Below, piece after piece: positions 56,356 to 61,697 of a stretch of DNA of 64,000 nucleotides (positions are counted from its first letter, which is position 1; every line of letters begins with the position of its first letter). Where the stretch lies: NCBI RefSeq assembly GCF_004363075.1, contig NZ_SNYN01000009.1, forward strand, positions 57,010 through 121,009, read 5' to 3'. This stretch comes from Actinorugispora endophytica (GTDB taxonomy: Bacteria; Actinomycetota; Actinomycetes; Streptosporangiales; Streptosporangiaceae). Below the pieces are notes generated by a model. The model saw only the letters and a program-made list of their open reading frames with translations. It did not search any database and was not told the DNA's origin. The position numbers and the translations under genes were made by a program.

Positions 56356-57045
56356 GTGATCCACTTTGAAAACGTCACCAAGGTCTACCCGACCCAGAAA
56401 CGACCGGCTCTGAACGGCGTTTCCATCGACGTGGACAAGGGAGAGTTCGTCTTCCTCGTCGGACCGTCCGGTTCGGGTAAGTCAACGTTCCTCCGGCTGG
56501 TCCTCAAAGAGGAGAAGCCGACCAAGGGCAGGGTCCACGTCGCGGGCAAGGACCTCGCGCGACTGTCCAACTGGAAGGTGCCGCACCTGCGTCGCCGCAT
56601 CGGCTGCGTCTTCCAGGACTTCCGGCTGCTGCCGAACAAGAACGTCTTCGAGAACGTCGCGTTCGCGCTCGAGGTCATCGGCAAACCCCGCCGGTTCATC
56701 CGCAAGGTCGTCCCCGAGGTCGTCGAACTGGTCGGTCTCGAGGGCAAGGCGACCCGCATGCCCGACGAGCTCTCGGGTGGCGAGCAGCAGCGCGTGGCGA
56801 TCGCCCGGGCGTTCGTGAACCGGCCGCAGATCCTGCTGGCCGACGAGCCCACCGGAAACATCGACCCGGCCACCTCGATCGGCATCATGAAGGTGCTCGA
56901 CCGAATCAACCGCACCGGCACGACCGTCGTCATGGCGACGCACGACGCCGCCATCGTCGACTCGATGCGCAAGCGCGTCATCGAGCTCGAGGACGGCGAG
57001 GTCGTCCGCGACCAGTCGCGCGGCGTCTACGGCCAGGCGTACTAG
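56356..57045 (+). CDS. ftsE: cell-division ABC ATPase FtsE
   Basis: The protein has 229 residues. Walker [10 protein letters not shown] starts at 36, the signature [14 protein letters not shown] and Walker [14 protein letters not shown] are present, and the switch His lies in MATHDAA. With FtsX it activates wall hydrolases at the septum. GTG 56356 has no strong ribosome site. Unusually ftsX does not follow immediately. Confidence 0.96.
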
Positions 57046-57525: not shown

Positions 57526-58434
57526 ATGCGAGCACAGTTCGTACTCTCTGAGATCTGGATCGGCCTGCGGCGAAATCTGACGATGACCATCGCGGTCATC
57601 ACCACGGTCGCCATCTCGCTGGCCCTCTTCGGCGCCGGCATGCTGATCAACCAGCAGGTCAGCGCGATGCGCGGGTTCTGGGACGAGCGGATCTCGATCA
57701 CGATCTACCTGTGCACCGAGAGCTCCCCCAGCGACCACTGCATCGAGAACGGCCCGGCGACCGACGAGGACCGCACCTCCCTGCAGTCGGACCTGGAGTC
57801 CATGTCCGAGGTCGCGGGCGTCGAGTACGTGTCCCAGGCCGAGGCGTGGCAGGACTTCCAGGACCGCTTCTCCAACCGGGAGGCCCTCGTCGAGGCCACC
57901 CAGGAGGGCGACATCCCGGACAACTTCCGGGTCCAGCTGGCCGACCCCTCGCAGTACGAGACGGTCCAGGAGAGCGTCCAGAACCGCGCGGGCGTCGACA
58001 TGGTCTCCAACGACAAGAACGTGCTCGACCAGTTCTTCGAACTGCTCGACGGCCTCAAGTGGGCCGCGCTGACGGTCGCCATCGTCCAGTTGGCCGCGGC
58101 GGCGCTGCTGATCGCCAACACGATCCGGCTGTCGGCCTACAGCCGCCGCCGCGAGACGGGTATCATGCGGCTGGTCGGGGCCTCCAACTTCTACATCCAG
58201 CTGCCGTTCCTGCTGGAGGGGGCGATCTCCGGCCTCATCGGCGGTATCTTCGCGGCGGGCTTCATCATCGCGACGAAGTTCTTCCTTCTGGACAAGATCC
58301 AGAACTGGTTCCAGTTCAACGTCCAGCTCGGCATGGGAGCGGTCATGTCGGTGGTCGGGATGTCCATGATCCTGGGCGTGCTGCTCTGTACGATCGCCTC
58401 CTTCCTCACGCTCCGGCGCTACCTGCGGGTCTGA
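57526..58434 (+). CDS. ftsX: cell-division membrane protein FtsX
   Basis: The protein has 302 residues. Four membrane helices: one near 21-45, an extracellular loop of about 130 residues containing two Cys ([10 protein letters not shown]), then three helices from about 180. [19 protein letters not shown] is the FtsX signature for coupling to FtsE. ATG 57526 follows AAGGATGG at a longer distance. smpB starts 28 bp later. Confidence 0.95.
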
Positions 58435-58462: not shown

Positions 58463-58927
58463 GTGACACGGGAAAAAGGGCGCAAGACCATCGCGCAGAA
58501 CCGGCGCGCCCGGCACGACTACCACATCGAGGACACCTACGAGGCGGGCCTGGTGCTCACGGGCACCGAGGTCAAGTCCCTGCGCGCCGGCCGCGCCTCG
58601 CTGGTGGACGGCTTCGCCCTGATCAAGGACGGCGAGGTCTGGTTGCAGAACGTGCACATCCCCGAGTACACGATGGGGACGTGGACGAACCACATGACGC
58701 GTCGGCCTCGCAAACTCCTGCTGCACCGCGAGGAGATCGCGAAGCTGATCGCCAAGACCCGCGAGTCGGGTCGGACCTTGGTGCCGCTGTCGCTCTACTT
58801 CAGCGACGGTCGCGCCAAGGTCGAGATCGCTCTGGCGCGGGGCAAGCGCGAGTACGACAAACGCCACGATCTCGCAGACCGAGAGGCCCAGCGCGACATC
58901 GAACGCGCCCTGCGCCGTCGGCGCTGA
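58463..58927 (+). CDS. smpB: SsrA-binding protein SmpB
   Basis: The protein has 154 residues. It contains [34 protein letters not shown], and a basic C-terminal tail [11 protein letters not shown] that mimics the codon in trans-translation. It acts with the tmRNA at 61328. GTG 58463 follows AAAGGAAG. Confidence 0.96.
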
Positions 58928-58939
58928 AAGGAAGACTAG

Positions 58940-60886
58940 GTGTCCCCCCGACACGTCCGCCGATCCCTCGCCGCGGCCATGAGTCTCGCCGCGGTCGTCG
59001 TCGCCACAGGTTGCGCGGCGGAACCGAGCCCGGAGGTGGCGGTCCGCCACTTCCTCCTGAACTGGCAGTCCGGTGAGTACGAGGCGGCGGCCGGCCAGAC
59101 CGACGGTGACGTCGCGGAGGTCGCCGAGACGCTCCGGCAGGCGCACGACCAGCTCGACCTGGCGGCGCTGCGGCTGAGTCTCGGCCACATCGACAAGGAC
59201 GGCGACACCGCCTCGGCCAGCTTCGGAGTCCAGGCCGACCTCGGTATCGGGGACCCGGTGTGGCGCTACGAGGGCTCCATGCCGCTCACCCGCACCTCCA
59301 GCGGCTGGGCCGTCAACTGGTCGTCCGCGGTCATCCACCCCGACCTGGGCGACGGCGAGCGCCTCGCCGTCACCTACGCCGTGCCGGACCGCGGCCAGAT
59401 CCTCGACCGCGAGGGCGAGCCGCTCGTCGGCGAGACCGAGGTCACCGCGTTCGGCGTCCGCCCGGCCGAGATGGCGGACATGACCCAGGGCGTCAACAGC
59501 CTCGCCGAACTGCTCGGCGAGGACCCCGAGCCGCTGCTCAACCGGGTCCGCTCGGCCCCGCCCGACGAGTTCCAGCCGCTGGTGCTCAAGCGCACCCAGG
59601 ACGTCCCGGGCTCGCTGAGGACCAACGCCACCAAGATCCCCGGGGTCGAGACCGCGCAGCTGAACATGCCGCTCACCCCCACCAGCGCCTCGGCGGTCGT
59701 CGGCGAGGTCGCGGGCACGGCCGAGCACAAGGTCTCCACCCGCGTCTCGGGCCCGTACCAGGCCGGCGACACCGTGGGCCTGAGCGGCCTGCAGAGCAGC
59801 TACCAGCAGCAGCTCGCGGGGACGGCCACCACCAGGATCGTCACGCTCGACACCGCGGGCCAGGAGACCGGAGTCCTGGAGACCTGGTCCGGAGTCGAGA
59901 GCGGCTCGCTGGGAACCACCATCGACAGCACCGTGCAGGGGGCCGCCGAGGAGTCCCTCGCCACGATCACCACCAGCGCCTACCTGGTGGCGGTCGACGC
60001 GCGGTCCGGCGAGGTCCTGGCCTCGGCCGCGCGGCCCGAGGGGACGGCCAACGACGGCGCGTTCACCAAGGAGTACCTGCCGGGGGAGACGTTCACGATC
60101 GTCTCGGCCGCGGCGCTGCTGGGATCGGGCATGGGGGCGGACACGCCGGTGCCGTGCGAGCAGAGCACGCAGGTCGGCGACACGACCTTCACCAACCCCA
60201 GCGGCGGGATGCTGTACGGGGCGCCGGACCTGATCCGGGACTTCGCCTTCAGCTGCACCACGGCCTTCGCCGGACTGGCGGGCGAGGTGAACGACGGCGC
60301 CCTGGCCGACACCGCCGCCGCCTTCGGGATCGGACAGCCCTGGCAGCTGTCGGTGCCGACCTTCAGCGGTGAGTTCACCGCCCCGACCGACGAGGAGTCC
60401 GCCGCCGCCGCGATGGTGGGAGCCGGCGGGGTCACGGTCAGCCCGCTCACCATGGCCCTGGCGGCCGGGACCGTGGCGGACGGCCGGTGGCACGCGCCGC
60501 GGCTCGTCCAGGACGACTCCCGGGAGCAGGCCGAGCCCGGTCCCGACCTGGCCTCCGAGGTCGTCGAACCGCTGCGCGAGATGATGCTGACCTCGGTCCA
60601 GGAGGGCTCCGCGGCCGCGGCCAACATCAGCGCGACCGTCCCGGTGCACGCCCAGACCGGTCTGGCCCGGCAGGACATCGACGGCGAGGAGACGTCGGTC
60701 CAGTGGTTCGTCGGCTACCAGGGGCACGTGGCCTTCGCCGTGGTCGTGGAGACGCCACCCGAGCACACCTACCAGTTCGCGGTGAACTCGGGCGTCTCGT
60801 TCCTGCAGCTGCTGGCCGACTACGTCCAGCCGATCGACGCCGGCGCGGCCGAGGACACCGGGGCGGAGACAGCCTCCGGCGCCTGA
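58940..60886 (+). CDS. PBP-like lipoprotein lacking catalytic motifs
   Basis: The protein has 648 residues. Signal peptide and lipobox VATGC; an NTF2-like MecA-N-type domain (about 27-135); a PBP dimerisation region; then a transpeptidase-like domain (about 320-635). The expected SxxK reads PGETFT (Glu383, Thr386), SxN reads SCT (438-440) and KTG reads QTG (572-574), so no acyl-enzyme can form. The fold-forming surrounding residues are well kept, implying a structural or regulatory role. GTG 58940 has AAAGGAAG upstream, 12 bp after smpB. Confidence 0.9.
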   Translation: MSPRHVRRSLAAAMSLAAVVVATGCAAEPSPEVAVRHFLLNWQSGEYEAAAGQTDGDVAEVAETLRQAHDQLDLAALRLSLGHIDKDGDTASASFGVQADLGIGDPVWRYEGSMPLTRTSSGWAVNWSSAVIHPDLGDGERLAVTYAVPDRGQILDREGEPLVGETEVTAFGVRPAEMADMTQGVNSLAELLGEDPEPLLNRVRSAPPDEFQPLVLKRTQDVPGSLRTNATKIPGVETAQLNMPLTPTSASAVVGEVAGTAEHKVSTRVSGPYQAGDTVGLSGLQSSYQQQLAGTATTRIVTLDTAGQETGVLETWSGVESGSLGTTIDSTVQGAAEESLATITTSAYLVAVDARSGEVLASAARPEGTANDGAFTKEYLPGETFTIVSAAALLGSGMGADTPVPCEQSTQVGDTTFTNPSGGMLYGAPDLIRDFAFSCTTAFAGLAGEVNDGALADTAAAFGIGQPWQLSVPTFSGEFTAPTDEESAAAAMVGAGGVTVSPLTMALAAGTVADGRWHAPRLVQDDSREQAEPGPDLASEVVEPLREMMLTSVQEGSAAAANISATVPVHAQTGLARQDIDGEETSVQWFVGYQGHVAFAVVVETPPEHTYQFAVNSGVSFLQLLADYVQPIDAGAAEDTGAETASGA

Positions 60887-61327: not shown

Positions 61328-61697
61328 GGGGGTGATCGGTTTCGACTTCGGTGGTTGTTGTAGGGGAAGCGGGCCGAGGACCGCGAACGCAACCTCGTTA
61401 ACACTGCGATCGCAAACCAACAAGTGCCAATTCCAAGCGCACTGAGTTCGCTCTCGCTGCCTAAGCGATAGCGACTCTGTCGGCCTGAGGGCGTCTCCGC
61501 CTCAGGGTCCGGCATCGTTAGGAGACTCACCGGTCAGATCAGGCCACGGGGCCTGACCGGGAAAATCACGTGGCTGGGCCTGTCGGCGACTCGTCTGCGA
61601 GAGTGCCGGGGCCGAGTAGAACGCAAAGCAGACTGCGCCCGGAGAAGCCCTATTGCAGCACTGAAGGACGCGGGTTCGATTCCCGCCACCTCCACGA
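61328..61697 (+). ncRNA. ssrA: transfer-messenger RNA
   Basis: The 5' end GGGGGTG (61328-61334) pairs with CACCTCC (61687-61693) as acceptor stem with one G-U, and the T-arm is GGTTCGATTCC. The resume codon GCC at 61426 opens a 12-codon tag ending TAA 61462-61464, encoding ANSKRTEFALAA, whose LAA end is recognised by Clp proteases. The encoded 3' end is CGA rather than CCA, so CCA must be added enzymatically. It works with SmpB. Confidence 0.96.

Follow-up and report, generated by a model that had tools for sequence, protein, structure and literature searches.

The window, which is the whole 64,000-nucleotide stretch of Actinorugispora endophytica DNA that was analysed, encodes a natural, clade-wide pseudoenzyme of the class B penicillin-binding proteins (PBPs), in which all three catalytic motifs of the transpeptidase domain have been replaced. 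We give a probability of about 0.55 to the reading that this ancient pseudo-transpeptidase acts non-catalytically, likeliest through its MecA_N and pedestal domains on partners in peptidoglycan synthesis. The gene, the parts of its product and its neighbours are as follows.

56356..57045, + strand: ftsE, upstream neighbour (Pfam ABC_tran; named by its place before ftsX)
57526..58434, + strand: ftsX, upstream neighbour (Pfam FtsX_ECD and FtsX)
58463..58927, + strand: smpB, immediately upstream, a conserved neighbour (Pfam SmpB, 8.8e-63)
58940..60886, + strand: gene of the 648-aa pseudo-transpeptidase lipoprotein (GTG start preceded by AGGAAG; open frame with three Pfam domains)
59012..59014, + strand: lipobox cysteine Cys25 (lipobox TGC; Cys in 84 of 109 orthologues)
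59030..59356, + strand: MecA_N (NTF2-like) domain, residues 31-139 (Pfam, 1.6e-11)
59384..59872, + strand: PBP dimerisation (pedestal) domain PBP_dimer, residues 149-311 (Pfam, 1.3e-18)
59981..60769, + strand: transpeptidase domain without catalytic residues, residues 348-610 (Pfam, 9.6e-29)
60086..60097, + strand: former SxxK motif, now ETFT, residues 383-386 (sequence, alignment)
60251..60259, + strand: former SxN motif, now SCT, residues 438-440 (Cys439 in 109 of 109 orthologues)
60653..60661, + strand: former KTG motif, now QTG, residues 572-574 (sequence, alignment)
61328..61697, + strand: ssrA (tmRNA), downstream neighbour (ARAGORN)

The frame at 58940-60886 is uninterrupted and starts 12 nt past the smpB stop. 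MecA_N, PBP_dimer and Transpeptidase each scored above their own Pfam cut-offs, and with Cys25 in place the earlier note's description of a full-length lipoprotein frame with intact domain order is borne out. Both PF00905 and PF03717 lay above their gathering scores, and the only Pfam matches at E<=1 were these three domains, with no glycosyltransferase domain, as is the case in the class B PBP sequence family. The position of MecA_N ahead of the dimer domain, together with a lipobox export signal, would place the protein among the MecA_N lipoprotein PBPs. The sequences predict a folded protein that is exported and, for the most part, anchored by a lipid, the lipobox being observed and the lipidation presumed. 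None of SxxK, SxN and K[T/S]G, the motifs of a functional DD-transpeptidase or penicillin-binder, is found in it; ETFT, SCT and QTG stand at the SxxK, SxN and KTG positions, just as the earlier note had read them. The seven other PF00905 matches in the same genome all keep S..K, SxN and K[T/S]G, as a pattern match showed for six and an alignment for the seventh (L001).

The same losses run through the orthologues. Searches with tblastn gave 15 orthologue loci, including Nocardiopsis, Thermobifida, Streptomonospora, Marinactinospora and Murinocardiopsis, and the motifs were absent in all 15. These loci overlap with a set of 109 orthologues taken from 107 of 200 genomes of the family, from G216 of the same family, and from G200, the one family-f2 genome in the order sample. 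The set spans 67 genera (66 of the family's 68, plus g69) in two families of one order; its G040 row is represented by a Thermobifida fusca contig (L022), judged from matching coordinates to be that genome and read in part, whose copy is likewise degenerate. Lysine was found at neither catalytic lysine column in any of the 109: the Lys386 column holds S in 49, T in 41, G in 18 and Q in 1, and the Lys572 column Q in 56, V in 39, I in 13 and L in 1. Serine occurs at the Ser383 column in 10 orthologues and asparagine at the Asn440 column in one. Cys406 and Trp589, like Cys439, are present in every orthologue, and the frames are open across the three motif sites in 109/109. Local decay or sequencing error was ruled out by the recurrence of the losses in all 15 loci and all 109 orthologues.

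A profile built from 25 orthologues and searched in 200 genomes of the same family matched, at E<=1e-120, in 198 genomes and in 67 of 68 genera; a match at this threshold reports the presence of the gene and not the state of its motifs, intact copies outside the clade reaching 1e-159 to 1e-182. The profile missed G055, where the gene is cut at a contig end and 56 N-terminal residues, 70% identical, are present, and G104 (93% complete, 460 contigs), where the best match is another, intact PBP (L165). The lipobox cysteine is lost mostly in one subgroup of orthologues (L130-L143, L154, L155 and L159-L164), which tends to longer N-terminal open frames and in which a membrane anchor perhaps replaces the lipid. 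Separately, a second, short and long-branched PBP paralogue (L175, at G028 C14:296935-297888) was seen, also without SxxK, SxN and KTG.

Outside the clade, all five smpB-adjacent homologues found were intact at all three motifs. These are L152, L153 and L158, from three family-f3 genomes of the same order, and the copies in G297 (f9) and G373 (f37) of the class; L158 carries the same three Pfam domains as the window protein. Another 16 class homologues, in none of which smpB was on the fetched piece, were intact in 15 cases and partly changed in one, L090. In a tree of 52 rows, 19 of them pseudo, rooted at the midpoint, a branch supported at 100/100 set the 19 pseudo rows apart from all others, and beside them the intact copies from f3 and the class formed a group (91/78). 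The end branches measured 0.19-1.16 for pseudo rows versus 0.03-0.99 for intact rows. The simplest reading of these sequences is that catalysis was lost once, at the clade's base and before the f1/f2 split, and that the gene was kept afterwards. It had been proposed beforehand that orthologues with intact motifs would mark the case as local decay; such orthologues exist, but they were found only outside the clade, and they therefore serve to date the loss and are no sign of local decay. As for L090, it is a second PBP copy in G303 that reads TAFK, SCN and TTG, with an intact homologue (L089) elsewhere in the same genome, and it may represent a similar loss that arose independently and has gone less far.

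An AlphaFold2 model of the window protein was of middling quality (pLDDT 74.7, pTM 0.56). Its best Foldseek matches were 7bn9, 6mka and 4bl2, at 16-20% identity. The model aligned nearly full length with Bacillus subtilis PBP3, Enterococcus faecium PBP5 and Staphylococcus aureus PBP2a (TM ~0.6, rmsd 7-9), and over residues ~139-633 it matched numerous chains of class B PBPs and their relatives (Z ~40). The window protein shares with those three MecA_N class B PBPs the order MecA_N, PBP_dimer, transpeptidase, and differs from them in lacking all three catalytic motifs and in its 16-20% identity. The resemblance of the model to solved class B PBPs supports the fold only, and the groove was left uninterpreted because of the middling quality of the model.

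Columns were compared between 66 pseudo sequences, one per genus, and 30 intact homologues; the pseudo set passed over L022 and L157 and leaves g29 unrepresented, and the intact set is without the degenerate L090 and L175. In the intact homologues six of the seven motif columns are invariant and the seventh nearly so. Of the 63 columns at least 90% conserved in the intact homologues, 40 stay at least 90% conserved in the pseudo sequences, the retained columns including glycines, prolines and tryptophans of the core and a pair of cysteines that may form a disulphide. The losses took all seven catalytic-motif columns versus 16 of 56 others (Fisher P=4e-4). Nearly invariant columns numbered 20/109 in MecA_N of the pseudo sequences versus 7/107 in the intact ones, and 38/250 versus 50/246 in the transpeptidase domain, a shift between the two domains with P=0.008 that may in part be due to the intact set covering a broader span of lineages. 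This relative richness of MecA_N in nearly invariant columns speaks for the idea that the protein is a wall-status receptor and not a scaffold, its MecA_N/pedestal region or its empty groove binding a muropeptide or nascent strand non-covalently and signalling to a partner. In PBP2a the allosteric site sits in the MecA_N/pedestal region. The domain order of the window protein is that of PBP2a, whose solved structures, by the titles of 3zg5 and 3zfz, include a peptidoglycan analogue and ceftaroline bound at an allosteric site. Against a receptor, Pfam matched no signalling domain in the protein, and we regard this reading as unlikely.

The source genome encodes one other MecA_N protein (L004), with motifs intact, and a homologue of this paralogue was found in 24/24 genomes searched, with intact motifs in all 24 (K[T/S]G by alignment). 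So regular a companion would suit a decoy or brake that fills the site where an active class B PBP, for example this paralogue, would otherwise bind, and that lowers crosslinking. However, the pseudo protein persists where the paralogue was not found at E<=1e-40: in the one-contig genome G139 only the smpB-linked gene matched at this threshold, and in the incomplete, many-contig genomes G052, G115, G054 and G002 there was no match. A decoy or brake seems to us distinctly improbable. The intact paralogue was also considered as a necessary partner or as the reason for the loss, and is not supported as a necessity, several pseudo genomes showing no match to it at that threshold. In the three f3 genomes and in G297 and G373, only the intact smpB-linked copy matched at E<=1e-40, which would agree with the idea.

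The columns of the former active site vary about as much as other columns of the domain (entropy ranks 37-79%) and so give no hint of a new active site. Catalysis by relocated residues was considered; in general, pseudoenzymes whose residues have migrated are known (PMC10211241, in the part of that paper available). Among K, S, C, H, D, E, R, Y and T, only C406, C439, T441 and S501 are at least 90% conserved in the pseudo transpeptidase domain, which has no conserved lysine, and these four are also common in the intact homologues (30, 30, 29 and 26 of 30). Cryptic catalysis is thus very improbable.

Selection on the gene was gauged by dN/dS (Nei-Gojobori). In 11 sister pairs the medians, whose absolute values are rough in G+C-rich DNA, were 0.35 for the transpeptidase domain, 0.22 for the dimer domain and 0.30 for MecA_N, and in the same genomes 0.22 for the transpeptidase domain of the intact paralogue, 0.14 for ftsX and 0.15 for smpB. 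A second run had 5,564 pairs in the dS range; the 60 lowest-dS pairs, which are not mutually independent, gave medians of 0.34, 0.24 and 0.25 for the transpeptidase, dimer and MecA_N domains, with single maxima of 1.10, 1.07 and 0.61, the single high pairs being G037/G130 (1.1, transpeptidase) and G057/G086 (1.07, dimer). Among the window gene and its three closest g41 relatives, the transpeptidase domain ran at 0.60-0.78; the intact paralogue is also loose in two window-group pairs (0.47 and 0.55). By this measure the pseudo transpeptidase domain is looser than that of the active enzyme, and far from neutral on average. That the gene is decaying and retained for no reason but its position between smpB and ssrA, as the values in the window's group and the single pairs near 1 elsewhere might suggest, is scarcely credible given frames open at the motif sites in all 109 orthologues, the gene's presence in 198 of 200 genomes, median dN/dS of 0.22-0.35 and one ancient clade. 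Neither mark of a pseudogene, a disrupted frame or neutral evolution, was found, though single pairs near dN/dS 1 exist. In sum, the loss of catalytic residues throughout the clade, the near-universal presence of the gene and selection that is on average purifying strongly support the proposal, made when the sequence was first read, of a maintained pseudo-enzyme.

The gene order in the window is prfB, ftsE, ftsX, smpB, the pseudo-transpeptidase gene and ssrA. In 107 of the 109 orthologues smpB is found upstream in the same orientation; in the other two (L022, L142) it was off the piece read. The estimated distance from smpB to the pseudo gene runs from -3 to 1134 nt, and the seven distances over 350 nt all belong to sequences without the lipobox cysteine, which tend to longer stop-to-stop frames. 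A tmRNA gene was found in 31/38 loci tested and not in L070, L071, L072, L083, L152, L153 and L158, the last three of which have only a short downstream flank. An odd tag that ARAGORN gave for the window's tmRNA (61328-61697) was rejected, the usual ANSKRTEFALAA* being encoded at gene position 99, as in the nearest relatives. An extra gene, absent from the window, lies between ftsX and smpB in L055, L056, L070, L071 and L073; it is an S41 peptidase with a PDZ domain by Pfam in L055 and similar by eye in the other four. The earlier note had pointed to a cluster with ftsEX and smpB. These neighbours are confirmed, but nearness to ftsEX is weak evidence for a role, because ftsX and smpB likewise precede the intact outgroup copies L083 and L084, and because the adjoining smpB and ssrA are translation genes. 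The locus is as much one of trans-translation as of division, and the setting alone does not assign the protein to the divisome.

The preferred reading, that of a non-catalytic partner, would run as follows. The ancestor would have been a catalytically active MecA_N-type class B PBP encoded downstream of smpB, whose acylation machinery was probably lost in the common ancestor of families f1 and f2. The gene would since have been kept as that of a folded, exported, mostly lipid-anchored pseudo-transpeptidase. Its MecA_N and pedestal domains may bind and position partners in peptidoglycan synthesis, or tune them allosterically, while the transpeptidase fold may serve as a rigid body or as a non-covalent surface for stem peptides, crosslinking being left to the cell's intact PBPs. 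The looser transpeptidase domain, former active-site columns that are no more constrained than their surroundings, and the missing cysteine anchor in one subgroup speak against this reading. Most likely the protein is tethered to the membrane and partners or regulates peptidoglycan synthases, and the divisome scaffold offered at the outset is plausible. The beta-lactam sensor offered along with it is unlikely in any form that works by acylation, because the serine-lysine pair is gone. The beta-lactam receptors BlaR1 and MecR1 do use the penicillin-recognising fold for sensing, and depend for it on a serine that can be acylated and on a membrane protease domain. The window protein differs from them in having no SxxK and no further Pfam domain.

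Laboratory precedents for such a protein are known. In the available parts of the two papers concerned, catalytically inactive B. subtilis PBP2B (S309A) still supports division, with PBP3 supplying the activity (PMC5656894), and Clostridioides difficile PBP3 does not need its own catalysis to promote asymmetric division (PMC12713402). B. subtilis PBP2B S309A and C. difficile SpoVD S311A and PBP3 S299A are like the window protein as class B PBPs that aid division without catalysis of their own, and they differ from it in being engineered mutants of active enzymes and not a natural inactive clade. Mycobacterium abscessus PBP-lipo, an active PBP, is likewise a predicted actinobacterial lipoprotein, tied to septal wall synthesis; it is likened here as a lipoprotein PBP, and it differs in that its catalytic-dead S364A allele did not rescue growth, which counts against a non-catalytic role (PMC9170245, available part). 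Streptomyces beta-lactamase candidates without active-site motifs have been reported, and the available part of that report contains no such class B PBP (PMC6273383). Among the matches listed, the open-access literature gave no description of a natural clade-wide inactive class B PBP; subscription papers, or papers beyond those listed, may contain one.

The structural versus the crosslinking role of class B PBPs is an open question that has been approached with engineered serine mutants. Tentatively, at somewhat below even odds, a single event turned an ancient class B PBP into an enduring part of the wall-building machinery that works without catalysis, kept by nearly all sampled members of the family, its fold being indispensable without acylation, whether it activates a peptidoglycan polymerase allosterically or serves as a wall receptor, and the protein being insensitive to beta-lactam acylation. 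Annotation by domain only would count one penicillin target too many in these organisms. The clade amounts to a natural experiment, with intact homologues and dead ones at the same locus, and comparison of the two separates the role of the transpeptidase reaction from that of the protein.
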